From: Pseudomonadota bacterium
GTDB lineage: Bacteria > Pseudomonadota > Alphaproteobacteria > Rickettsiales > RGZB01
DNA length: 60,810 nucleotides
NCBI GenBank assembly: GCA_010031735.1
Contig: RGZB01000008.1
Span: forward strand, 1-60,810
Direction: 5' to 3'
Shown: positions 121 to 15,083 of the stretch, one piece after another
How the letters are laid out: each line of letters opens with the position of its first letter
Numbering within the stretch: position 1 is the stretch's first letter
Notes under the pieces: generated by a model
Told to the model about the DNA's origin: nothing
Database searches by the model: none
What the model saw: only the letters and a program-made list of their open reading frames with translations
Position numbers and translations under genes: made by a program

Positions 121-1032
121 ATGTCTCATACGGTGTTCATTATCGGAGGGCCTACCGCCAGTGGTAAATCCGCTCTGGCGATGCTTTTAGCCGAAAAAAT
201 TCCTGCTGTCATCATCAATGCAGACAGCATGCAGGTTTACCGCGAAATCCCCATCATCGGCGCCCATCCGACCCCTGAAGAGCAGAAAATCATTCCCCAC
301 CGCCTCTACAGCATCATGGGGGCGGAAGAACGCGGCAGTGTCAGCCGCTGGTGCGAACTTGCGAAGGCAGCTATCGAAGCGACCTTCAAGGCAGAAAAAG
401 TACCTGTACTCGTGGGTGGCACCGGCATGTACCTCCTGAGCCTGATGAAAGGTATTTCGGATATCCCGACCATGGATGATGAAATCCGCGACCAGGCACA
501 GGCCGAGCTTGATGCCATGGGACATGAGAAATTCCACGCACGCCTGGCGGAAAAAGACCCGGAAGCCGGTGAGCGCATCAAAATCGGCGATTCACAGCGC
601 CTGATCCGCGCATGGGGTGTTTACCTGCAAACCGGGATTGCACTCAGCACCTGGCATCAGAAAAAACTGGAACCTTATCTACCCCACGTTACCTATAAAG
701 GCATTTTCCTGAATCCGGGTCGCGAGGTGTTATACAAACGGTCGGATGCGCGCTTCCTCTCGATGTTAGAAAATGGCGCGATGGAAGAAGTCATATCCTT
801 ATGGGAACGTAAACTGGATCCTTCGCTACCGGCCATGCGTGCACATGGAGTGCCGGAACTGATCGAATATCTGGATGGCAGGACAACACGGGAAAAAGCC
901 GTGATCGATGCACAGACGCATACGCGTAACTATATCAAGCGCCAGCTGACGTGGCACCGCAATCAAATGCCGATGTTACCGGAATGTGGAACGCCGGAAG
1001 CAGCGCTCGAATTATTGTTGAAGAATACTTAG
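121..1032 (+). CDS. miaA: tRNA dimethylallyltransferase MiaA
   Basis: MiaA transfers a dimethylallyl group to N6 of A37 in tRNAs that read codons starting with U, the first step of ms2i6A formation. The 303-residue length is normal. The P-loop GPTASGKS is at residues 10-17, followed by the substrate motif DSMQVYR at 35-41 and GGTGMYL near residue 100, all hallmarks of the family. The C-terminal region contains the usual THTRNYIKRQLTWHRN segment. The gene ends convergently with the unknown leftward gene at 1029, and the two overlap by four bases. No terminator is visible between them. Confidence 0.95.
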   Translation: MSHTVFIIGGPTASGKSALAMLLAEKIPAVIINADSMQVYREIPIIGAHPTPEEQKIIPHRLYSIMGAEERGSVSRWCELAKAAIEATFKAEKVPVLVGGTGMYLLSLMKGISDIPTMDDEIRDQAQAELDAMGHEKFHARLAEKDPEAGERIKIGDSQRLIRAWGVYLQTGIALSTWHQKKLEPYLPHVTYKGIFLNPGREVLYKRSDARFLSMLENGAMEEVISLWERKLDPSLPAMRAHGVPELIEYLDGRTTREKAVIDAQTHTRNYIKRQLTWHRNQMPMLPECGTPEAALELLLKNT

Positions 1033-1967
1033 GCACCCAACAGTTTCGGATCGTCTTTCGCCTGCTTGCGTTTATCCTCCAAGGTCTTCGCCTTATCGCC
1101 GATCGCCTCTCGTGCAGCCGAAGCGGCCACTGCAGATAAATCGCGCGTGAAGAAACCAACCTCACCGAGTTTTTCGACCACTTCTGCCACCGAGCCCTCG
1201 ATATAGAGGCCACCCGAATGGGCCGGATTGGTGGTTTTATCGTTGGCACGGCGGAAGGCAACACCCACCTGCTCTAAGAAGTGCTCAATGCGTTCATAAT
1301 CCGATTCCGGGCCTACTACCTCTAAACGCGAACTGCCTTTCAGTGCCGTTTCTTTGATAGTGACTGGATACGCGGCCGCCAAAGAGCCAAATTTCACACC
1401 GATCGGACGTTCGTACCTACCGCCCAAATCATGCACCACCAATTGTACGTTCTTACCGAACAATTCCTGGCCATAGCCTTCTTTATTCAGCGCAGCAAAC
1501 ACCTTACGTTTGGTATCGGCACTTACGCCTGGCATGTGATCGAACACTTGGCATACATCTGCTTCTTTCGACACATCCAGTTTTCCGAGTGTGGTTGCCG
1601 CATCTTGCGCAGTAATGACATCTTTCAAGGCCATAGCTACCGTAATATTGCCGGCGACATTATGGAGCTTTTCCTTTGACTTATCTTTGCCGGTAATGGC
1701 CAGTGTCAGGCTAGTTGCGACCGTCGGGGTCGTATCACGTTCCACACCTGCGGCCTGCATGAATTTCTCTTCCTTGAAGGTATCATAACCTGCCTTCTTG
1801 TCTTTGAGATCGATAATAACTTTTGGCGGCTCGTATTTATCTTCTGGCAGACGCACCCGTAATTCAGCGGTCGTTTTCCCGCCAAACGTACCGTCCGTCT
1901 TGAATTCGATGTTGCTGCCGATAGACCTACCAGCGTCATCATTCAAAACTTTATAATTGACTGCCAT
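1029..1967 (-). CDS. Hypothetical protein, 312 aa, unrecognised
   Basis: I do not recognise this protein. It has no signal peptide or membrane segment and is rich in Lys, Glu, Asp and Thr, so it is probably cytosolic. The N-terminal half (roughly 1-110) looks beta-rich with alternating polar and hydrophobic residues. The middle contains a helical segment around residues 115-160, and the C-terminus (from about 285) is a charged Lys/Asp-rich helix. It is a monocistronic leftward gene. A TTAA-N7-TTAAC box lies about 45 bases upstream of the ATG, which suggests control by CtrA. The flgH operon terminator lies just upstream, so the gene is insulated from the flagellar operon. Confidence 0.75.
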   Translation of the reverse strand: MAVNYKVLNDDAGRSIGSNIEFKTDGTFGGKTTAELRVRLPEDKYEPPKVIIDLKDKKAGYDTFKEEKFMQAAGVERDTTPTVATSLTLAITGKDKSKEKLHNVAGNITVAMALKDVITAQDAATTLGKLDVSKEADVCQVFDHMPGVSADTKRKVFAALNKEGYGQELFGKNVQLVVHDLGGRYERPIGVKFGSLAAAYPVTIKETALKGSSRLEVVGPESDYERIEHFLEQVGVAFRRANDKTTNPAHSGGLYIEGSVAEVVEKLGEVGFFTRDLSAVAASAAREAIGDKAKTLEDKRKQAKDDPKLLGA

Positions 1968-5781: not shown

Positions 5782-6450
5782 ATGGCCGATAAAAAAGAAA
5801 AAAAAGCCGAAGAAAAACAAGAGAAGAAGGACGCCGAAAAGCCTGAAAAAGAGGCCAAAAAAGGCAAAGGTGATGCCGCCGATACCGGTGAGAAAAAAGA
5901 AGGCGAAGCAGCAGAAGGTGCTGAAGGAGCCGAGGGTGCTGAAGGCGAAGGCGGCGGTAAAGCGGCGCGTAAAAAGAAACTCATCATTGCAGCGGCAGGG
6001 GTAGTTCTACTCCTCGTCGGTGGCCTGGGTGCTGCATTTGTAGCCGGCGCATTCAAACATAAAAGTGCGGAAGCAGCAGATGGTGCAGAAGCCGGTGCGG
6101 AAGGTGCTGAACACGGTGATGGTAAAGGTAGCCCTGCGGTGCCGCAGATCAGCTATCTCGACATGGAGGAATTCCTGGTTAACCTGAATACCGGCGGCAA
6201 ACAGAACAGCTTCCTGAAGATGAAGGTGACGCTTGAACTCCCGAGTCCAGCAGAAAAGGCCGTGGTAGAAACCCAGATGCCGCGGGTCAGGGACAGCTTC
6301 CAGATCTATCTCCGCGAACTGCGTGCAAACGACCTGCAAGGTGCAGGTGGTATGCAGCGCCTGCGTGAAGAATTACTGCTACGTGTGAATAAGATCATTT
6401 ACCCGGCAAAAGTCAGTGACATTTTGTTCAAAGAGATTATCGTTCAGTAA
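5782..6450 (+). CDS. fliL: Flagellar basal-body-associated protein FliL
   Basis: FliL is an inner-membrane protein that surrounds the stator and supports motor torque. The 222-residue protein has a long charged Lys/Glu/Ala-rich cytoplasmic N-terminus (about 1-70), one membrane segment (about 73-92), a Gly/Ala/Glu linker, and the periplasmic FliL domain with YLDMEEFLVNLN and FLKMKVTLEL. The domain ends in the usual KIIYPAKVSDILFKEIIVQ. The N-terminus is longer and more charged than in most FliL. It is followed by fliM after 20 bases. Confidence 0.92.
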   Translation: MADKKEKKAEEKQEKKDAEKPEKEAKKGKGDAADTGEKKEGEAAEGAEGAEGAEGEGGGKAARKKKLIIAAAGVVLLLVGGLGAAFVAGAFKHKSAEAADGAEAGAEGAEHGDGKGSPAVPQISYLDMEEFLVNLNTGGKQNSFLKMKVTLELPSPAEKAVVETQMPRVRDSFQIYLRELRANDLQGAGGMQRLREELLLRVNKIIYPAKVSDILFKEIIVQ

Positions 6451-6470: not shown

Positions 6471-7547
6471 ATGGCTGAGGAACAAAAAACCCCCGCGTCA
6501 GGAGACGCAGCAAAAGACGAAGCTGCGATGGCAGCGGAGTGGGCTGCTGCCGCTGAAGGCGGTGGTGGCTCGCCTGCGGCTGAAAACAAAACCCTGAGTC
6601 AGGACGAGATTGATAGTCTCTTAGGTTTTGGCGGCGGCGGTGCGGGCAGCAAAACCGGCATCCGTGCACTGCTTGATCGCGCCCTGCTTTCTTACGAACG
6701 CCTGCCAATGCTCGAGGTCGTATTCGACCGCTTCGTGCGCACGCTGTCGACCAGCCTTCGTAACTTCACCTCGGACAACGTGGATATCGTCATCGATTCC
6801 ATTACCTCGATGCGCTTCGAAGATTACATGAACTCGGTGGAACTGCCCTGCCTGCTTAGTATTTTTCAGGCAGTCGAGTGGGAAAACTATGGCCTTATCA
6901 CCATCAACAGCTCCCTTACCTACTCGATGGTGGACGTGCTGCTGGGTGGCGGCCGCGTGAACCATCCCGTGAAGGTGGAAGGCCGCCCCTTCACCACCAT
7001 CGAACAAGATATCGTGAAAAGCCTGGCGACCCTGATGCTGGATGATATGTCGAGCTCGTTCAACCCGCTGACGCCGATCACCTTCCGCCTGGAACGTATC
7101 GAGACCAACCCACGCTTTGCGACGATCACCCGGCCTTCGAACGCCGTCATCGTCGTGACCTTGAAGATCGATATGGAAGGCAAAGGCGGACGTGCGGACA
7201 TCCTGATCCCTTACGCCACACTCGAGCCGGTGAAAGAGCTCTTAGTGCAGCTGTTCGCGGGTGAAAGCTTCGGTGATTCCTCTTGGGAAGACTTCTTCTT
7301 TAAGGAGATCCGCAGCATGATCGTCGATATCGAGGCCGTATGGCCGGAAAAGGCTGTCACCTTGAAGGATATCGCCAACTTGACGGTCGGTAGCACAATC
7401 ATGCTTGATAATAGCCCAGAAGACCCTATCCTGCTCCGCTGTAAGGGCATCGATATGCTCTCGGGGAAAATCGGCAGCGTGGACAGTAGCGTGGCAGTAC
7501 AGGTTTCAGAAGTAATCAACAAAGTGCAGGAAGAGGATCTGGTATGA
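6471..7547 (+). CDS. fliM: Flagellar motor switch protein FliM
   Basis: FliM is the C-ring protein that binds phospho-CheY and transmits the signal to the rotor. The protein contains LSQDEIDSLLGF around residues 42-53, the CheY-binding segment. This is preceded by an unusual 40-residue Ala/Glu/Gly-rich extension, whereas in most FliM the motif is at the extreme N-terminus. The central domain (SYERLPMLEVVFDRFVR, GRVNHPVKVEGRPF) and the C-terminal SpoA domain (from about 285) are intact. The stop overlaps the next start as ATGA, so the following gene is translationally coupled. Confidence 0.95.
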   Translation: MAEEQKTPASGDAAKDEAAMAAEWAAAAEGGGGSPAAENKTLSQDEIDSLLGFGGGGAGSKTGIRALLDRALLSYERLPMLEVVFDRFVRTLSTSLRNFTSDNVDIVIDSITSMRFEDYMNSVELPCLLSIFQAVEWENYGLITINSSLTYSMVDVLLGGGRVNHPVKVEGRPFTTIEQDIVKSLATLMLDDMSSSFNPLTPITFRLERIETNPRFATITRPSNAVIVVTLKIDMEGKGGRADILIPYATLEPVKELLVQLFAGESFGDSSWEDFFFKEIRSMIVDIEAVWPEKAVTLKDIANLTVGSTIMLDNSPEDPILLRCKGIDMLSGKIGSVDSSVAVQVSEVINKVQEEDLV

Positions 7548-8194
7548 TTCTCGATGCACTGCTTGCATGCTTATTGCTGGCCACCATCGGCTATAGCTGG
7601 AAACTGAGCCGTAAAGTCTCCGCCATCAACGATAGCCGTAAAGAACTCGAGAATTTCATTAAGGAATTCAATACCGCGATCTCGCGCGCCGAAGTCAGCA
7701 TCGCGACATTGCGCACGTTAAGCAGCGACACGGATGTTTCCTTGAAAAGCCACATCGAGAAAGCACGCTTCCTCACGAACGACCTCGCTTTCTTTACGTA
7801 TAAAGGTAACTCGGTCGCAAACCGCCTAGAAAGCCGTATCTCGGAATCCCGTATGGTCGATCCGGACCCAATGGGCCTTAAAAGCGGAAAAACAGCCGCT
7901 GAACCCGATGATGCTGCGAAAAGCGCTGTCTGGAAATTCCCGGAGAAGCCGGCACAACCCATAAAGAAATCCAGTGAAATGAGCCCTTCTAAGAAGCAGG
8001 CGCTCGATAGCGCGCTCGCACTGCTTGCCAAGCGCAAAAAACCAGAAGTGGATGCCCCGCGTGAAGAAAAGAAAATCATCCCCGGCGTGACCCAAAGGCC
8101 AGCAGCGGCAAAACCCGCTGATACAAAAGGCGATATCGTGAATGTACGCCAATCGGTCGATTCACTCCGCACCTCGCTTGAGATGAAATCCTGA
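7544..8194 (+). CDS. DUF6468-like flagellar-locus membrane protein
   Basis: A 216-residue protein with one N-terminal membrane segment (residues 1-19) followed by a long amphipathic coiled coil (about 25-110, including SRKELENFIKEFNTAISRAE) and a disordered, charged C-terminus. It matches what I recall of DUF6468, a protein found between fliM and motE in Rhodospirillales flagellar clusters; its function is not established. It is translationally coupled to fliM and sits two bases before the motE-like gene, so a role at the motor or stator is likely. The family assignment is from memory. Confidence 0.75.
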   Translation: MILDALLACLLLATIGYSWKLSRKVSAINDSRKELENFIKEFNTAISRAEVSIATLRTLSSDTDVSLKSHIEKARFLTNDLAFFTYKGNSVANRLESRISESRMVDPDPMGLKSGKTAAEPDDAAKSAVWKFPEKPAQPIKKSSEMSPSKKQALDSALALLAKRKKPEVDAPREEKKIIPGVTQRPAAAKPADTKGDIVNVRQSVDSLRTSLEMKS

Positions 8195-8196
8195 TC

Positions 8197-8997
8197 ATGA
8201 GAATCCGCTTACTCCCCGTCCTCATCCTGGCCTGCATTGGCCTTTTCGCAGTCAAAATAGATGCGATCTATGAACACCGTCAGGATTTCATGGGTGTCCT
8301 GTTCGTACCGAACTCCCAAGCTGCCGAAGACACCAAGAAAGCAGCTCCAGCTGCTGAAAAACCTGCCGCGGCGGGTGCAGGTGAGAAAAAATCCGGTGAG
8401 AAAGCGGCTTCCGGCGAACATACACCTGCAGCCGAAGCAGCGGCAACGGGTGGCAGCGGCAGTAGCGGTGCCGCCGCCGAAGCGCCGCCGCCGACCGTCA
8501 TCAAACCGCCGGAAACTTATAGTGACACCGAAGTCGAGATCCTGAAGCGCCTCTCAGAACGCCGCAAGAAACTCGACGAATGGGAACGTGACCTGGAAGT
8601 GAAGCGCAATGCTTTACAATTGACGGAGCTGCGCATCGAACAGAAACTCTCCGAACTCAACACGCTCAAAGTCGCGGTGGAGAAGCTCCTCGCACAGTAT
8701 AACGAGAAGGAAGACGCTAAAATCCGCTCGCTCGTCAAGATCTACGAGAACATGAAGCCAAAAGATGCTGCACGCATCTTCGACGAACTCGATATGGACG
8801 TACTGCTGCAGGTAGTCGACAAAATGAAAGAGGCGAAAAGCGCGCCCGTGCTGGCTAATATGTCACCTGCGCGCGCCAAGGAAATCACGCAGTATTTCGC
8901 ACGCCAGCGTAAACTGCCGGACGCCCCGATCGAGCCGCCGCCGCCAGCCGCCGCTCCGAAGCCCTACGTTCCAGGTGCAACACCTGTCACCCAATAA
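8197..8997 (+). CDS. MotE-like stator chaperone
   Basis: A 266-residue exported or membrane-anchored protein with a hydrophobic N-terminus (about 5-20), an Ala/Pro/Glu-rich linker (about 45-105), and a coiled coil (about 110-165). The C-terminal MgtE-N/MotE-type domain contains SLVKIYENMKPKDAARIFD and LLQVVDKMKEAK. In alphaproteobacteria MotE is a periplasmic chaperone that stabilises MotC and supports motility. The context after fliL-fliM-DUF6468 supports a motility role. It may be annotated elsewhere as an MgtE-like magnesium transporter fragment, but it lacks the transporter domain. Confidence 0.8.
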   Translation: MRIRLLPVLILACIGLFAVKIDAIYEHRQDFMGVLFVPNSQAAEDTKKAAPAAEKPAAAGAGEKKSGEKAASGEHTPAAEAAATGGSGSSGAAAEAPPPTVIKPPETYSDTEVEILKRLSERRKKLDEWERDLEVKRNALQLTELRIEQKLSELNTLKVAVEKLLAQYNEKEDAKIRSLVKIYENMKPKDAARIFDELDMDVLLQVVDKMKEAKSAPVLANMSPARAKEITQYFARQRKLPDAPIEPPPPAAAPKPYVPGATPVTQ

Positions 8998-9087: not shown

Positions 9088-9474
9088 ATGGCCGTTGATA
9101 AAAATATGCCCATTCTGATTGTGGATGACTACCAGACGATGCGCCGCATTGTCCGGAACCTGCTTGAACAACTAGGTTTCAAAAATATTGAAGAAGCCAC
9201 CGATGGACAGAACGCACTCTCAAAACTCAAAGAGAAGCCCTTCAAAATGGTGATCTCTGATTGGAATATGGAGCCGATGTCTGGCTTACAACTCTTAAAG
9301 ACCATCCGCGCAGACGCAACGCTCGCTCCGCTCCCGTTCATCATGGTGACCGCGGAAAGTAAAGCCGAGAACATCATGATCGCAAAACAAGCGGGTGTGA
9401 ATAACTATATCGTGAAGCCGTTCAACGCAGAAACCCTGAAGACCAAACTTTCGGCAGTGCTCGGACCTTTCTAA
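9088..9474 (+). CDS. cheY: Chemotaxis response regulator CheY
   Basis: A single-domain receiver of 128 residues. The acidic pair is D13-D14, the phosphoacceptor is Asp58 in MVISDWNMEPMSGL, the switch Thr is T88 in MVTAES, and the conserved Lys is K110 in VKPFN. The DWNM-P-MSG-LL pattern is typical of CheY that binds FliM. It is followed 36 bases later by cheZ, matching a CheY/CheZ phosphorylation-dephosphorylation pair acting on the FliM in this cluster. A good Shine-Dalgarno sequence (AGGAG) precedes the ATG. Confidence 0.93.
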   Translation: MAVDKNMPILIVDDYQTMRRIVRNLLEQLGFKNIEEATDGQNALSKLKEKPFKMVISDWNMEPMSGLQLLKTIRADATLAPLPFIMVTAESKAENIMIAKQAGVNNYIVKPFNAETLKTKLSAVLGPF

Positions 9475-9510: not shown

Positions 9511-10137
9511 ATGACTATGCCAGAAAATCTTGCGAAGGAATTCGTAAAACACCTGCAGGCGATCCGTAGTAAGACAACCGATGCGATCAAACCGGAAGAC
9601 CTCCAGGCCGCGCTCCAGAAAGTCAATAACGAGACCGCAAACGAGCTCTATAACGAAATCGTTGCTATCTCACAGAAAATCAATGTGGCATGCCACAACA
9701 TCAGCGAAGAAGAACGCCAGAAGATCGCCAAAAGTTCTATCCCTACCGCGAACGAAGAACTCGACGAAGTGGTGAAGGCCACCGAAAAAGCGACGAATGG
9801 TATCCTGAACGCAGCCGAAACCATTCAGAAGGCCGTCGAAGGTGCACCGGAAAATGTGAAAAATGCCGTGAATGCACAGGTGATGCAGATATTCGAGGCC
9901 TGCAGCTTCCAGGATATTACGGGACAACGCATCAAGAAAGTTGTCTCCACCCTGTTCGAGATCGAGAAAATGGTAGACCGCATCGTGGGTAAAGTCGGCG
10001 CGGCACCCGCAACCAAAGGCGCGCCCAAACCGGCAGGATCACTCAATCCAGACAGCGAGCGTCACCTGATGAACGGTCCGCAAATGCGCCAACCCACGCA
10101 AGAAGAAATCGACAAGTTGTTCTCGGACAACAAATAA
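9511..10137 (+). CDS. cheZ: CheY-P phosphatase CheZ
   Basis: CheZ speeds dephosphorylation of CheY-P. This 208-residue, mostly helical protein contains the family signature ACSFQDITGQRIKKVV (about residues 130-145), which includes the catalytic Asp and Gln. The extreme C-terminus, PTQEEIDKLFS, is the CheY-binding peptide. The segment between them is Gly/Pro-rich and flexible, as expected. It follows cheY closely in the same direction. Confidence 0.92.
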   Translation: MTMPENLAKEFVKHLQAIRSKTTDAIKPEDLQAALQKVNNETANELYNEIVAISQKINVACHNISEEERQKIAKSSIPTANEELDEVVKATEKATNGILNAAETIQKAVEGAPENVKNAVNAQVMQIFEACSFQDITGQRIKKVVSTLFEIEKMVDRIVGKVGAAPATKGAPKPAGSLNPDSERHLMNGPQMRQPTQEEIDKLFSDNK

Positions 10138-10321
10138 CAGCTGCATTATTTTGTTCCGGATAGAAATGGCGCAGGCTGAAGCCTCCCGCTCAGATGCCCT
10201 CTGAACACAAGGCTGGAAGCGGATTCCACGAGGAACGAATATCTTACATTTCCGATGCCTTCTTTGTTTACAATCCAAACCAAAACACTCTAAAATGCCC
10301 TTCATAAATAAAGGGTTGGGC
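10138..10321 (+). other. Leader region with mutually exclusive pairings
   Basis: Between cheZ and the large exported protein. AGCCT (10180-10184) can pair with AGGCT just upstream (10173-10177) or with a second AGGCT (10210-10214). CCGCT (10186-10190) can pair with AGCGG (10218-10222), crossing the second of these. TCAGA/TCTGA (10190-10204) forms a small hairpin. The pattern could be a structured leader, or chance. Confidence 0.3.
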
Positions 10322-13300
10322 GTGAGATTTGTATTTCTCCTTATCATGTGCATGGTGCTGGTTCTTGCCGAACCGCTGGCCGACGTGCGTGCGCAAGACG
10401 CTGCGGCGTCAGCGGTGGAGGAAATCACCGTGCGTGCGCAGAAAAATAAAGACTTCACACGGCTCATCTTCCGCGGCAAGATCGAGAATTTCAATGTCCG
10501 CTTCATTGGCGCCACGGTGCGCATCCAAACCGGCAATCCAGTCTCACTCAATTTCGACCCAGCAGCGAGCGGCGTTTCCGATTCGGTGATCGGTAGCAGT
10601 ACAGATGCCACCAACCGCACCATCAATATCACCCTTGCAAGCAAGAATTTCCGCGTACGCAAATTCGAAAGCAATAGCTTCGCAGGCATCGACCTGATCC
10701 CGCTGACTCCGGAAGAGATCGCGAAGAAAGCAGCGGATGAAGCAAAAGCAGAGCAGACGAAGAAAGATACGCCAACGGTCCTTAATCCACCGAAAGCCAA
10801 ACCCCAATCGATCGTACCACCCGCAGCAGGGACGAAGCCCACTGAAGCAGCGGATGCCGCTGCGAAGCCATTAAAGCCGCCGGCAGCAAAAAAAACCGAT
10901 GCACCAAAACCCTCTACGCCCTCGGAGAAAGCGACTCCTAAAACCGAAAAGAAACCCGAGACCAAGGTCGCGGAAAAACCTGTCATCAAAGGAAGCGTGC
11001 TGACCCTGCCGTTCCATGAACGTGCTTCTGCAGCCATCTATACGCGCGGGAATATCACCTGGGCGGTGTTCGACAAACCGCTGCAACTGAAGCCGGAATG
11101 GCTCTCGAACCAAAGTACGATCGACAGTGTCTCACAGATACCTCACCGCAATTTTACGATTATCCGCCTGAACCATGCAAAATCGCTTACTTCCTCCCAG
11201 GTCATAATCAAGAAGGATGAATCTACCTGGTCCGTCGAAGTAAGAAATGGTTCCCCCAGCAAACCCACACCGATTCCTGTGCTAACGGAAATCAAAAGCA
11301 CCATTTCCCGTGTCTTCCTCAATATCCTCCAAACCGCTGAACCGCTGGATTTCGTCGACCCCGTCATCGGCGACCGCCTCGTCGTGGTGCCGGTGGGCCT
11401 GCCGGATATGGGCATCGATCCCGGCCGTGGCTTTGTTGATTTCTCCCTGCTTCCCACACAACAAGGCATCGTGATCCAGCCGCTTACCGATGAGACCATC
11501 ATCAAAGTGATCCGTAACGGCGTACAGATCACCAGTGAGAAAGGGCTTAAACTCAATAGCTCGCGCGCTGCTGAAAAAGATGCGAATGCCACCGGCGCTT
11601 CCACACCAGCGCCCGTTTCCGCTGCGACAGCGCAAGCGATCCGCCAATCGCGCAGCTTGCTGCCTTTCGCACCGCAGCTTTCGAAGAAAAAAGATTTTCT
11701 GCCGCCACCCGAACCGGAAAAGAAGAAAAAAGGTAAGAAGGGGGAAAAGAAGGAAGGCGGTGAAACAGCCAGTGAAGAGAAGAAGGAAGAACCTGCAAAG
11801 GGCGAAGAAAAAAAAGATAGTGGCAAGGATGCTGCCAATGCCAAGACTGCTCCGCTCAAGATCCCACTCGTGCCGCCGATCTTAGAGAGCCGCCGTGAGA
11901 TGATTGATGCTATCAACAAAACCCCCTCACGTGAGAAAGCGAAATACCGCGTCGCGTATGCAAAAGCGCTCTTTGGTGAAGAACTGTATGCGGAAGCGCT
12001 CGGCGCGCTTACCGTTTCTTCGGATGCAGACCATAACCTGCTCGACGATAAATATTTCATGGTGCTCCTGGGCGGCACGCAATTCATGCAGCACCATTAT
12101 GCCGATGCCATCGATAGCCTGAAGCCACTCGAGAACCAGTTTGGTATCTCCGAGGGTCAGGAGGAAGTCAAACTGCTGCGCTGGGCTGCACAGGAAAGCC
12201 TTTTCCCCCGCACCGTCGTTGAGAACGTTCCCGTCGATGTAAATGGCCTTTATGGCGGCCTGCTGCAATCCTACCCCCAGAGCCTGCGTTTTGATCTGGC
12301 ACTCCTCGCTACTGAGAATTATATCGACTCCGGCGATCAGAAATCCGCAAAATCGCTACTCGATGCCATGGAAGAAGAGCTCGATATCCCACCGCATTAC
12401 CAGAACAGCGTGATGTTCGAACGTGCAAAATTGCTTGAAGCGCAGGAGCAATACAAAGACGCGATGTATCTTTACGGTAAGGTCACGGAAGATGTGCTGG
12501 ACTACCAAAACCGTGCACGTGCAGGTCTTGCACTCACCATGCTCAAACTACAAGTGGGCGATATCACCAAACCGCAAGCGCTCGTAGAACTCGAGAAACT
12601 GCGGAACGTATGGCGCGGCGATTATACCGAGATCAACTTGCTCGGCACCCTCGGCCAATTCTATGTCGATGAGAAAAAGTACCTTGAAGGTTTGCGTAGC
12701 TGGCGTGAACTCGTGAACAACTATCCAAACATCCAGGAATCTCTCTACACCGCCAGTGTGATGAAACAGACCTTCATTTCACTGTTTGATAAAAGCGGTA
12801 AGTTCGAGGTCGATCCGCTGACCGCGCTTGCCGCGTTCTTCGAATTCCGTGAGCTGACCCCGGTGGGCGTACAAGGCGACCAGATCGTCAGGAACCTCGT
12901 CGATTACTTCATCGATGCGGACCTCCTCGAAAATGCTGCAGCCGTGCTCACGCACCAAGTGCGCTTCCGCTCTGCTGGCGAAGAGCAGGGCCGCCTGTCG
13001 ATCAAACTCGCTTCCATACAGCTTCAGAACCGCAGACCCGACCTTGCGCTTGAGGTGCTGAACTTCATGAAGCTTGATCAGCTGTTCCCGAAAACCTTGG
13101 AGCAACGCAAATACCTGATGGCACACACCTACCTCGAACTCAACAAGCCGTTCGAGGTATTCAAACTCCTCGCAGAAGATGAGAGCGACGAAGCAGACGC
13201 GATCCGCCTCGAGACCTTCTGGCGCATGGGTAACTGGTTCGGCATCATGAGACTCGTGGAGCCGCAACTCCGCGGTTACCATAAACTCGGGCGCTATTTA

Positions 13301-13963
13301 AAAACACCGGAGATCCGCAACATCACCATGCTTGCGATGGCTTATGCGATCCAGCAAGACCGTCCGAAACTAAAAGCCGTGCGAGATATGTTCATCAACG
13401 AGATACAGGATAAGCCGAAGCGCGAATTCTTCGATTACATCACCGATGATGAAGGCGTCGTCTTCCATAAAGACTTAACCGAAACCGTACAGCTCGAGAC
13501 CACCAGCGAATTCATGGCCCGCCAATTCTATTGGCCGAATAAAGAATGGCCGAGCGTAGAGAATGTGCTGAAGCCTTTAGTCGAGCAGTTGCGCACAAAA
13601 CCGCCTGGGGAACTGACGGCAGACGACCAAGAGATCGTGGTGAAACTGGGTGTGGCACTCTTGATGCGTAACGACCCGGCATCACTCAAGGAGTTCCAGG
13701 CGCTGCAACGGGATTTCTCGAGCGTAAGGCTTACGAAAGATATGCTGCCATCACTCAATGCACTGGTCTATAAAACCGACCCGATCCCGGACAAAGACCT
13801 GGAGAAGCCGATTGCGCTTCGCGAACTCTCCGCCTTCATCGAGGCGCATAAACCGGTATTCACCAACAAGTTCGTGATGGAAGAGAAGCCGGCCGATACG
13901 GCCCCCACAGCGCCCACCACAGCAGCAGGCGCTGCAGCTGCTGCAGCACCCGTGGCACCGTAA
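10322..13963 (+). CDS. Giant exported helical-repeat protein of the motility cluster
   Basis: A protein of about 1213 residues with an N-terminal signal peptide. Residues about 25-110 form a beta-rich domain reminiscent of AMIN-type domains (DFTRLIFRGKIENFNVRF). A Pro/Lys/Ala linker follows (about 120-220), then a second beta-rich region (about 225-430) and a Lys/Glu low-complexity linker (about 455-510). The rest, to about 1170, is a helical array resembling TPR repeats, for example YRVAYAKALFGEELYAEALG. The end is Ala/Pro-rich. I chose GTG 10322 because AAGGG lies six bases before it; ATG 10295 would add nine residues but has no Shine-Dalgarno. The function is unknown. Position between cheZ and fliP suggests a periplasmic motor-associated scaffold. 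Confidence 0.85.
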   Translation: MRFVFLLIMCMVLVLAEPLADVRAQDAAASAVEEITVRAQKNKDFTRLIFRGKIENFNVRFIGATVRIQTGNPVSLNFDPAASGVSDSVIGSSTDATNRTINITLASKNFRVRKFESNSFAGIDLIPLTPEEIAKKAADEAKAEQTKKDTPTVLNPPKAKPQSIVPPAAGTKPTEAADAAAKPLKPPAAKKTDAPKPSTPSEKATPKTEKKPETKVAEKPVIKGSVLTLPFHERASAAIYTRGNITWAVFDKPLQLKPEWLSNQSTIDSVSQIPHRNFTIIRLNHAKSLTSSQVIIKKDESTWSVEVRNGSPSKPTPIPVLTEIKSTISRVFLNILQTAEPLDFVDPVIGDRLVVVPVGLPDMGIDPGRGFVDFSLLPTQQGIVIQPLTDETIIKVIRNGVQITSEKGLKLNSSRAAEKDANATGASTPAPVSAATAQAIRQSRSLLPFAPQLSKKKDFLPPPEPEKKKKGKKGEKKEGGETASEEKKEEPAKGEEKKDSGKDAANAKTAPLKIPLVPPILESRREMIDAINKTPSREKAKYRVAYAKALFGEELYAEALGALTVSSDADHNLLDDKYFMVLLGGTQFMQHHYADAIDSLKPLENQFGISEGQEEVKLLRWAAQESLFPRTVVENVPVDVNGLYGGLLQSYPQSLRFDLALLATENYIDSGDQKSAKSLLDAMEEELDIPPHYQNSVMFERAKLLEAQEQYKDAMYLYGKVTEDVLDYQNRARAGLALTMLKLQVGDITKPQALVELEKLRNVWRGDYTEINLLGTLGQFYVDEKKYLEGLRSWRELVNNYPNIQESLYTASVMKQTFISLFDKSGKFEVDPLTALAAFFEFRELTPVGVQGDQIVRNLVDYFIDADLLENAAAVLTHQVRFRSAGEEQGRLSIKLASIQLQNRRPDLALEVLNFMKLDQLFPKTLEQRKYLMAHTYLELNKPFEVFKLLAEDESDEADAIRLETFWRMGNWFGIMRLVEPQLRGYHKLGRYLKTPEIRNITMLAMAYAIQQDRPKLKAVRDMFINEIQDKPKREFFDYITDDEGVVFHKDLTETVQLETTSEFMARQFYWPNKEWPSVENVLKPLVEQLRTKPPGELTADDQEIVVKLGVALLMRNDPASLKEFQALQRDFSSVRLTKDMLPSLNALVYKTDPIPDKDLEKPIALRELSAFIEAHKPVFTNKFVMEEKPADTAPTAPTTAAGAAAAAAPVAP

Positions 13964-13974
13964 TTATCTAGGAA

Positions 13975-14727
13975 TTACACTCCAAAACTGCGAACCAGGC
14001 TGCCCGCGATCATGTGCCAGCCATCGATCAACACGAAGAAGATGAGTTTGAACGGTAGGGAGATAAGGACGGGCGGAAGCATCATCATACCCATCGCCAT
14101 CAAGGTCGCTGCGACTACCATGTCGATGATCAGGAACGGAATGAAAATCAGGAAGCCAATCTCGAAGGCACGACGCAGTTCACTGATCAGGAATGCCGGA
14201 ACGAGAATCTTGAGCGGCGTTGCTTCAGGCGATTCGATCTTCGGATTGCCTGCAAGCTCGACGAAGAGGGCGAGATCCTTCTCGCGTACATGCATCATCA
14301 TGAATTCATGGAACGGAGCCACGGTTTTCTCCCAGGCCTCCTTTTCCTTGATCTTGTTAAGCGTCAGGGGCTCGATACCGTCTTTATAGGCCTTCTCGAA
14401 CACCGGCTGCATGATGAACATCGTCAGGAACAGCGCTAAGCCGATCAGCACGGGGTTTGGCGGCGTTTGCTGGATACCAAGCGCGCTACGGAGCAAGGAT
14501 AACACCACGATGATGCGGGTGAAACTCGTGACCATCATCAGGATGGAGGGTGCCAGGCTTAGGATCGTCAGTAAAACGACTAATTGGAAAATACGGCGGG
14601 ATGCATCACCGGTGATATCCTCACCGAGATCCAGGCTGACCGTTTGTGCGGAAACCGCTACCGCGCCAAAACACAGCATCAGGCAAGCGATGATCGCGAT
14701 AAACTTTAAAGGCTTGGCAGCACGCAT
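13975..14727 (-). CDS. fliP: Flagellar export gate protein FliP
   Basis: FliP is the main pore component of the flagellar type III export gate. The 250-residue protein has a cleavable signal peptide (ending VSAQT, about residue 29) and four membrane segments. Family motifs include SLAPSILMMVTSFTRIIVV, SALGIQQTPPNPVLIGLALF, the helical RRAFEIGFLIFIPFLIIDM and the C-terminal LIDGWHMIAGSLVRSF. Its start overlaps the fliO stop as TAATG, so the two are coupled. fliQ and fliR are not adjacent. Confidence 0.97.
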   Translation of the reverse strand: MRAAKPLKFIAIIACLMLCFGAVAVSAQTVSLDLGEDITGDASRRIFQLVVLLTILSLAPSILMMVTSFTRIIVVLSLLRSALGIQQTPPNPVLIGLALFLTMFIMQPVFEKAYKDGIEPLTLNKIKEKEAWEKTVAPFHEFMMMHVREKDLALFVELAGNPKIESPEATPLKILVPAFLISELRRAFEIGFLIFIPFLIIDMVVAATLMAMGMMMLPPVLISLPFKLIFFVLIDGWHMIAGSLVRSFGV

Positions 14728-15083
14728 TAGCGTTTCTTTTCCCGTTTTTTGTCCTGAGGCTTTTTATCCTGGGTGCGGATGCCGCCTTCTATCACCAATT
14801 CATGATCAGGTGCAATCAAAACCAGATGCTCGACGTCATCCCGGCGGATCAGCACGAGGCGACGGCGAGGATCGAGTGCCATCATATCCGTGATGCCAAG
14901 GCGCTTGCCCTGCTTGGTGAAAGCCGCTTTACCGAGCATCGCCACCTGCGGGTTGGTCTTCTGGATCTCGCTACGGATGATGCGTTCTGCGCCAAAGCGG
15001 CGAAGCACCAGTGAGGTAAGCCCGACTAGCGCCAGTACGAATGCCAGCGCGGCGGTCGATTTGAACAGTGCGATCATTTCCAT
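14727..15083 (-). CDS. fliO: Flagellar export protein FliO
   Basis: FliO is a small membrane protein that helps assemble the FliP ring. This 118-residue protein has one N-terminal membrane helix (about 7-25) and a short cytoplasmic domain with LGITDMMALDPRRRLVLIRR followed by HLVLI, the typical FliO pattern. The C-terminus is a strongly basic Lys/Arg tail. It is translationally coupled to fliP, which supports the assignment despite weak family conservation. Confidence 0.85.
   Translation of the reverse strand: MEMIALFKSTAALAFVLALVGLTSLVLRRFGAERIIRSEIQKTNPQVAMLGKAAFTKQGKRLGITDMMALDPRRRLVLIRRDDVEHLVLIAPDHELVIEGGIRTQDKKPQDKKREKKR

Follow-up and report, generated by a model that had tools for sequence, protein, structure and literature searches.

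A large, putatively exported AMIN and TPR protein in a Rickettsiales flagellar gene cluster, a probable local ortholog of the stator-linked protein FssB

Background

The closest described system is FssB of Caulobacter crescentus (CC_2058), reported as a secreted TPR protein that is required both for stator activity and for flagellar signalling to the holdfast; when fssB is deleted, filaments are present, the cells are nonmotile and the flagellum is paralysed (PMC7885107). CC_2058 is adjacent to CC_2059, which encodes MotE (PMC11870540). A second protein, MotK of Cereibacter, is described as having an AMIN-like N-terminus and TPRs, as binding MotE and MotB2 and as being needed for rotation; the stability of MotE depends on it, and it is found at the flagellated pole in dependence on MotA2/MotB2 (PMC10954123). 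In the same source CC_2058 is proposed as a distant MotK homolog by structure and position, the Caulobacteraceae genes not being similar to motK by BLAST. Knowledge of FssB and of MotK thus comes from a single species in each case, and the two have been linked in print by structure and position. Since CC_2058 and MotK have both been used in published work as BLAST queries within the class, the idea of a family is not new.

A comparison of CC_2058, MotK and MotC with the PflA spokes is likewise in print (PMC11870540, PMC13023049). In Campylobacter jejuni the AMIN part of PflA is described at the rim, together with PflB. MotE, for its part, reportedly entered the literature as a chaperone of MotC. 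As for the Caulobacter motor, the published tomographic description gives it 11 stators, which it terms the lowest number encountered, and reports no PflAB-type scaffold (PMC7534056).

The gene and its neighbourhood

We analysed a window of 60,810 nt (that is, the whole stretch of DNA under study), in which an intact open reading frame on the forward strand extends from position 10295 to a stop at 13963. We consider this gene the local ortholog of FssB, an exported AMIN and TPR flagellar motor protein acting at the stators, with a probability of roughly 0.8. Pfam matches to FliL, FliM, DUF6468, MgtE_N (in MotE), CheY, CheZ and FliP give the following gene order.

5782..6450, +, fliL (PF03748)
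6471..7547, +, fliM (PF02154; TIGR01397)
7544..8194, +, DUF6468 gene (PF20072)
8197..8997, +, motE, candidate for an E-ring protein like FlgY/FlbB (PF03448 MgtE_N above cut-off; NF047368 FlbB at 3e-6, below cut-off; class-wide alignment A7)
9088..9474, +, cheY (Pfam)
9511..10137, +, cheZ (PF04344)
10295..13963, +, fssB/motK-type gene (open reading frame and family membership; 1222 aa from ATG 10295, 1213 aa if the start is GTG 10322)
13975..14727, -, fliP, convergent (PF00813)
14727..15083, -, fliO (TIGR03500 at 5.6e-8, below cut-off; Pfam FliO also below cut-off)

The initial annotation had placed a giant open reading frame in a motility cluster, between cheZ and fliP and downstream of fliL and motE, and both the intact frame and its placement are confirmed by these matches. 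The convergent fliP lies 12 bases beyond the stop of the gene, which is separated from motE by cheY and cheZ. By its position after fliM we equate the DUF6468 gene with pflI, described in PMC10954123. Elsewhere in the window, a 312-aa open reading frame without a Pfam match (1029-1967, minus strand) adjoins flgH.

The longest frame starts at ATG 10295, and the alternative GTG 10322 has an SD-like AAAGGG closely 5' of it, as judged by eye; either codon may be the start. A chance or fragmentary open reading frame was ruled out by relatives at E ≤ 1e-3 in 32 of 55 genomes of the same order (its own genome included) and by those in the class sample. No Pfam or NCBIfam model reached its cut-off on the window protein, and the best matches below cut-off were TPR-like, for instance ARM_TT21 at 1e-4. 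Known TPR families were considered and rejected: BamD (17.9 bits versus a cut-off of 81.4), YbgF and SprE all stayed below the NCBIfam cut-off, and matches to these families and to LapB were either below cut-off in the window protein or weak and scattered among the relatives.

Domain architecture and fold

The full-length protein was modelled by AlphaFold2 from the window and 69 named loci, 70 sequences in all, with a mean pLDDT of 81.4 and 719 of the 1189 mature residues at 90 or above, and a separate prediction from 58 sequences covered the N-terminal 392 residues. Alignments A5 and A6 contain 69 of 80 named loci and 57 of 67 rows, respectively. The model has three beta modules, a pair of disordered linkers and a stretch of TPR helices of about 660 residues, with the features below (residue numbers are those of the mature protein, except for the export signal).

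10295..10393, +, putative N-terminal export signal (residues 1-33, VRA↓Q, by eye)
10418..10702, +, AMIN-like domain 1 (residues 9-103; AlphaFold2; VIA-align to AmiC 4bin, Z 10.4, rmsd 3.5, 101 aligned)
10757..10963, +, disordered linker 1 (residues 122-190, pLDDT < 50)
10973..11248, +, AMIN-like domain 2 (residues 194-285; AlphaFold2; VIA-align to PilQ 4av2, Z 7.8, rmsd 2.2, 91 aligned)
11279..11536, +, third beta module with a conserved DP..GD...QG motif (residues 296-381; AlphaFold2; conserved columns D322, G326, Q357 and G358)
11570..11875, +, charged low-confidence linker 2 (residues 393-494; pLDDT < 50 at 393-409 and 428-494)
11879..13864, +, TPR-like helical repeats (residues 496-1157; AlphaFold2 and TPR matches)
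13511..13870, +, extra C-terminal module, second copy of the last module of the family (residues 1040-1159; profile match, i-Evalue 1.4e-8)

The N-terminus has a hydrophobic core followed by the putative cleavage site, again as seen by eye. Strands of the model at 9-103 and 194-285 form beta sandwiches and those at 296-381 the third module; the linkers fall below a pLDDT of 50 at 122-190 and 428-494, helical hairpins cover 496-1157, and no strand of at least 3 residues occurs between 382 and 1157. The layout first proposed, with two linkers and more than 600 helical residues, is therefore retained in the model, with three beta modules in place of the two then counted. As far as the published passages cover the matter, the conserved third module is absent from descriptions of the family.

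On the N-terminal model the first VIA-align hit was the PilQ chain of 3jc8 (Z 10.8, 188 aligned, with an overall rmsd of 20.7), and AmiC 4bin and PilQ 4av2 outranked small heat-shock domains (Z 7.4 down). Foldseek on the same part gave nothing at E ≤ 0.001, its best match being the same 3jc8 chain at 4.7e-3. An AMIN-like Pfam match was found in 5 of 21 relatives and not in the window protein itself, and PilQ sequence matches partly align proline- and alanine-rich linkers, so that the AMIN assignment rests on the VIA-align structure comparison. In the predicted model, then, the first two beta modules appear to match the AMIN domains of AmiC and PilQ, and an AMIN fold at the N-terminus is found together with a TPR-like helical C-terminal region, two of the features expected of the FssB/MotK family.

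An AMIN or beta domain followed by a TPR superhelix is also the layout of PflA, and it is present in the model of the window protein. This likeness favours an explanation in which the protein is part of a scaffold of the PflA/PflB kind, which would enlarge the stator ring and bring in additional stators for greater torque. With the whole model as query, Foldseek ranked 9hmf_K, a chain of the C. jejuni periplasmic scaffold, second in the PDB (E 5.4e-8, TMq 0.17) and 9hmf_L fourteenth; from its length (773 residues), 9hmf_K is probably PflA. We see no more than a similar layout in this match, because as many as 250 chains have E-values within 0.001, TPR repeats cross-match, and VIA-align of the whole model listed generic TPR proteins, with 9hmf not among its best 50 entries. 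In a PDB profile search generic TPR matches likewise dominate, and neither PflA nor PflB is named among the 60 of 71 matches listed. Generic TPR proteins thus score equally well, none of the loci examined had a recognisable counterpart of PflB, and Caulobacter has CC_2058 yet the low stator number given above, so that we regard a ring-widening scaffold as improbable.

Distribution in the order and the class

Within the order the relative was found in 32 of 55 genomes and FliM in 31 of 55. Three carriers lack a FliM match (G015, G036 and G017), all with FlhA and rod proteins, whereas two genomes with FliM lack the relative (G020 and G028, 70 and 80% complete). In a class-wide sample of 289 genomes the profile built from the order matched 165 at 1e-3, of which 149 at ≤ 1e-30 were considered strong matches and the 16 genomes between 1e-30 and 1e-3 were not. 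FliM was found in 160 of the 289, and 142 genomes had FliM together with a strong match; FlhA is present in all 7 strong carriers that lack FliM. The family is therefore present in most of the flagellated Alphaproteobacteria sampled, and the initial annotation was too narrow in confining the protein to this lineage. It had also named presence in non-motile relatives as one observation that would speak against a motor scaffold: every carrier, 149 of 149 strong ones in the class and 32 of 32 in the order, has FliM or FlhA, and those lacking FliM have FlhA in each case.

MotE was found in 154 of the 289 genomes; of the 149 strong carriers, 141 have it. Among the 160 genomes with FliM, the table of MotE against the TPR protein reads 138/4/9/9 (Fisher p 1.8e-7, kinship ignored). 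New here are the class-wide sequence profile and the close association of the family with MotE. Three genomes that have neither FliM nor a strong TPR match (G076, G236 and G304) gave a MotE-like match, and these matches may be non-flagellar relatives of MotE or false ones.

Counting against orthology with FssB, 18 of the 160 genomes with FliM have no strong match. Six of the 18 have weak matches, and several weak matches of genomes with FliM stop at contig ends. Other non-carriers with FliM have a low-scoring FliM, and we presume that these are perhaps genomes with Rhizobiales-type motors.

Relatives and gene order

A scan of named genomes gave 371 pattern matches and 330 relatives, of which 80 were kept; they include Brevundimonas, Pseudovibrio, Roseibium, Thalassobaculum and Sneathiella. 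Among the nearest are metagenome-assembled genomes titled 'Rickettsiales bacterium' (L117, L118, L121, L133, L135 and L139). Shorter members occur on plasmids of Azospirillum, Erythrobacter and Sphingobium, within flagellar clusters (6 records). A scan of genome contigs with the single protein confirmed no relative, and a literature listing on flagellated Rickettsiales with MotE had nothing on the window protein.

The link to FssB comes from the Caulobacteraceae. Profile A5 matched 36 of 40 genomes of this family, 35 of the 36 at 1e-224 or better, and in 11 of 14 testable regions motE lies upstream in the same orientation, at no more than 3.5 kb; the members are open frames of about 940-1110 residues. 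A5 itself contains three Caulobacteraceae rows (L154, L156 and L187), and the order-only profile A1 matches these at 1e-140 to 1e-172 (the Brevundimonas locus L154 at 1.9e-143), which makes the link independent of the rows in A5. Through the profile, the window gene is thus connected to FssB by members that mostly occupy the position downstream of motE. The links to CC_2058 and MotK are drawn by way of the orthologs in Caulobacteraceae and of the similarity in domains that has been published; on that basis the FssB family seems to include MotK as well.

In the class sample motE was within 3.5 kb 5' of the family gene at 12 of 13 testable loci, and in the named genomes at 42 of 62 (L116, which holds the fliM region and not the TPR gene, was excluded from these counts). 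In the order of the window this was so at only 5 of 26 testable loci, which counts against the FssB ortholog, and the gene stands away from motE at the other 21, as would an envelope TPR protein that merely shares an operon and has no role in the motor. Such a protein would hardly co-occur with FliM or FlhA in the genomes of all strong carriers of the class, nor orthologs at the fssB position in Caulobacteraceae, where fssB is reported as needed for swimming (PMC7885107), and we consider this explanation very improbable.

Three loci depart from the usual form. A reduced member of 592 aa (L097:7997-9772, genome G111) adjoins fliL-fliM-motE. FliM is matched twice in this genome, and a fused-looking FliM frame of 577 aa overlaps fliL. 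Tblastn of this divergent protein against plasmids gave no match, and the fliM of the locus led to plasmid regions of Roseobacteraceae and Komagataeibacter, which provided no comparison with MotK. In two metagenome-assembled genomes the gene is broken up into two open reading frames (L168:5650-9125 and L180:5632-9097), by gene fission or by an assembly error.

N-terminal-only copies and module duplication

Two genomes carry intact proteins with the beta part only and no TPR, of 345 aa (L099:7305-8339, G092) and 377 aa (L100:6136-7266, G219), which keep the conserved DP..G...QG-like motif and have similar-looking genes upstream and nearby. Profile searches of the class sample found no FliM, FlhA or MotE match in either genome. 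N-terminal-only copies in genomes without detected flagellar genes are new here; they too count against orthology with FssB, and their retention is the other point in favour of a protein without a motor role.

At the other end of the protein, the second copy of the last module was recognised with a profile built without the clade of the window. It is also present in L117 (9.9e-12), and L118 has residues at this place in the alignment. The last two modules of the window, compared pairwise, gave a score of 34 against a shuffle mean of 26.6 (sd 4.6), which is not significant, so the duplication is seen by profile only. This C-terminal duplication in the window, L117 and (by alignment) L118 is a new observation.

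Taken together, FssB and MotK could be one ancient, class-wide spoke family, with an N-terminal beta platform (two AMIN modules and the third module) that serves as a separable envelope anchor, retained alone in one lineage (G092/G219) without the TPR arm, MotE or detected flagellar genes, and a TPR arm lengthened by module duplication in the clade of the window. We put this forward tentatively, as possible rather than probable.

Proposed function

The window gene probably encodes a large periplasmic protein that helps to switch on the torque units of the flagellum. After export, the N-terminal AMIN modules would bind peptidoglycan or a partner in the motor, an anchor other than peptidoglycan being possible in view of the position of the PflA AMIN part at the rim with PflB. 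The two flexible linkers could let the TPR superhelix span, like a spoke, from the MotE ring around the MS ring to periplasmic MotB. Stators held or activated by the protein would then let the assembled flagellum turn, and without it the flagellum would be built but paralysed. Against a spoke counts the published Caulobacter tomogram, for which no PflAB-like stator scaffold is reported (PMC7534056).

The main task of the protein could instead be to stabilise or chaperone MotE or MotB, and not to serve as a built-in spoke, as the dependence of MotE on MotK in Cereibacter and the first description of MotE itself as a chaperone would suggest. The reported location of MotK at the flagellated pole via MotA2/MotB2 is that of a structural part (PMC10954123), and the large size and the AMIN modules better fit an anchor, for which reasons we hold a chaperone to be unlikely. 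Of the periplasmic scaffold proposed at the outset, an FssB-type stator protein keeps the periplasmic-type, flagellum-linked TPR protein with relatives needed for stator function, for which the PflA comparison is already in print (PMC11870540, PMC13023049); the widened stator ring is not supported, given the 11 stators of Caulobacter (PMC7534056).

Since the profile finds the family in about half of the class-wide sample, in step with MotE, it provides a list of orthologs for testing PflA-like spokes in alphaproteobacterial motors.

Comparison with known systems

The window protein shares with FssB that CC_2058 is reported as a secreted TPR protein adjoining motE in a flagellar cluster, and that Caulobacteraceae members at the CC_2058 position match the family profile. 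It differs in length, 1222 residues with an extra C-terminal module versus about 940-1110 in Caulobacteraceae, CC_2058 being known here via these orthologs.

MotK of the Fla2 system of Cereibacter sphaeroides, compared by description only, has in common with it a signal peptide, an AMIN-like N-terminus, a helical TPR region and an operon context with fliL, pflI and motE. MotK is, however, of 652 aa, with one AMIN-like domain reported and with motA between motE and motK.

MotC of Sinorhizobium meliloti and FlcA/FlcB of Borrelia, as reviews describe them, are likewise periplasmic proteins of the motor that are rich in TPRs and have MotE or FlbB as a partner. PflA of Campylobacter and Helicobacter differs in that no PflB partner was recognised here and that in C. 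jejuni the spokes are arranged 17-fold within a larger disk system; what it shares is a periplasmic AMIN or beta domain joined to a TPR superhelix, in a partner of the MotE-like E-ring protein FlgY.
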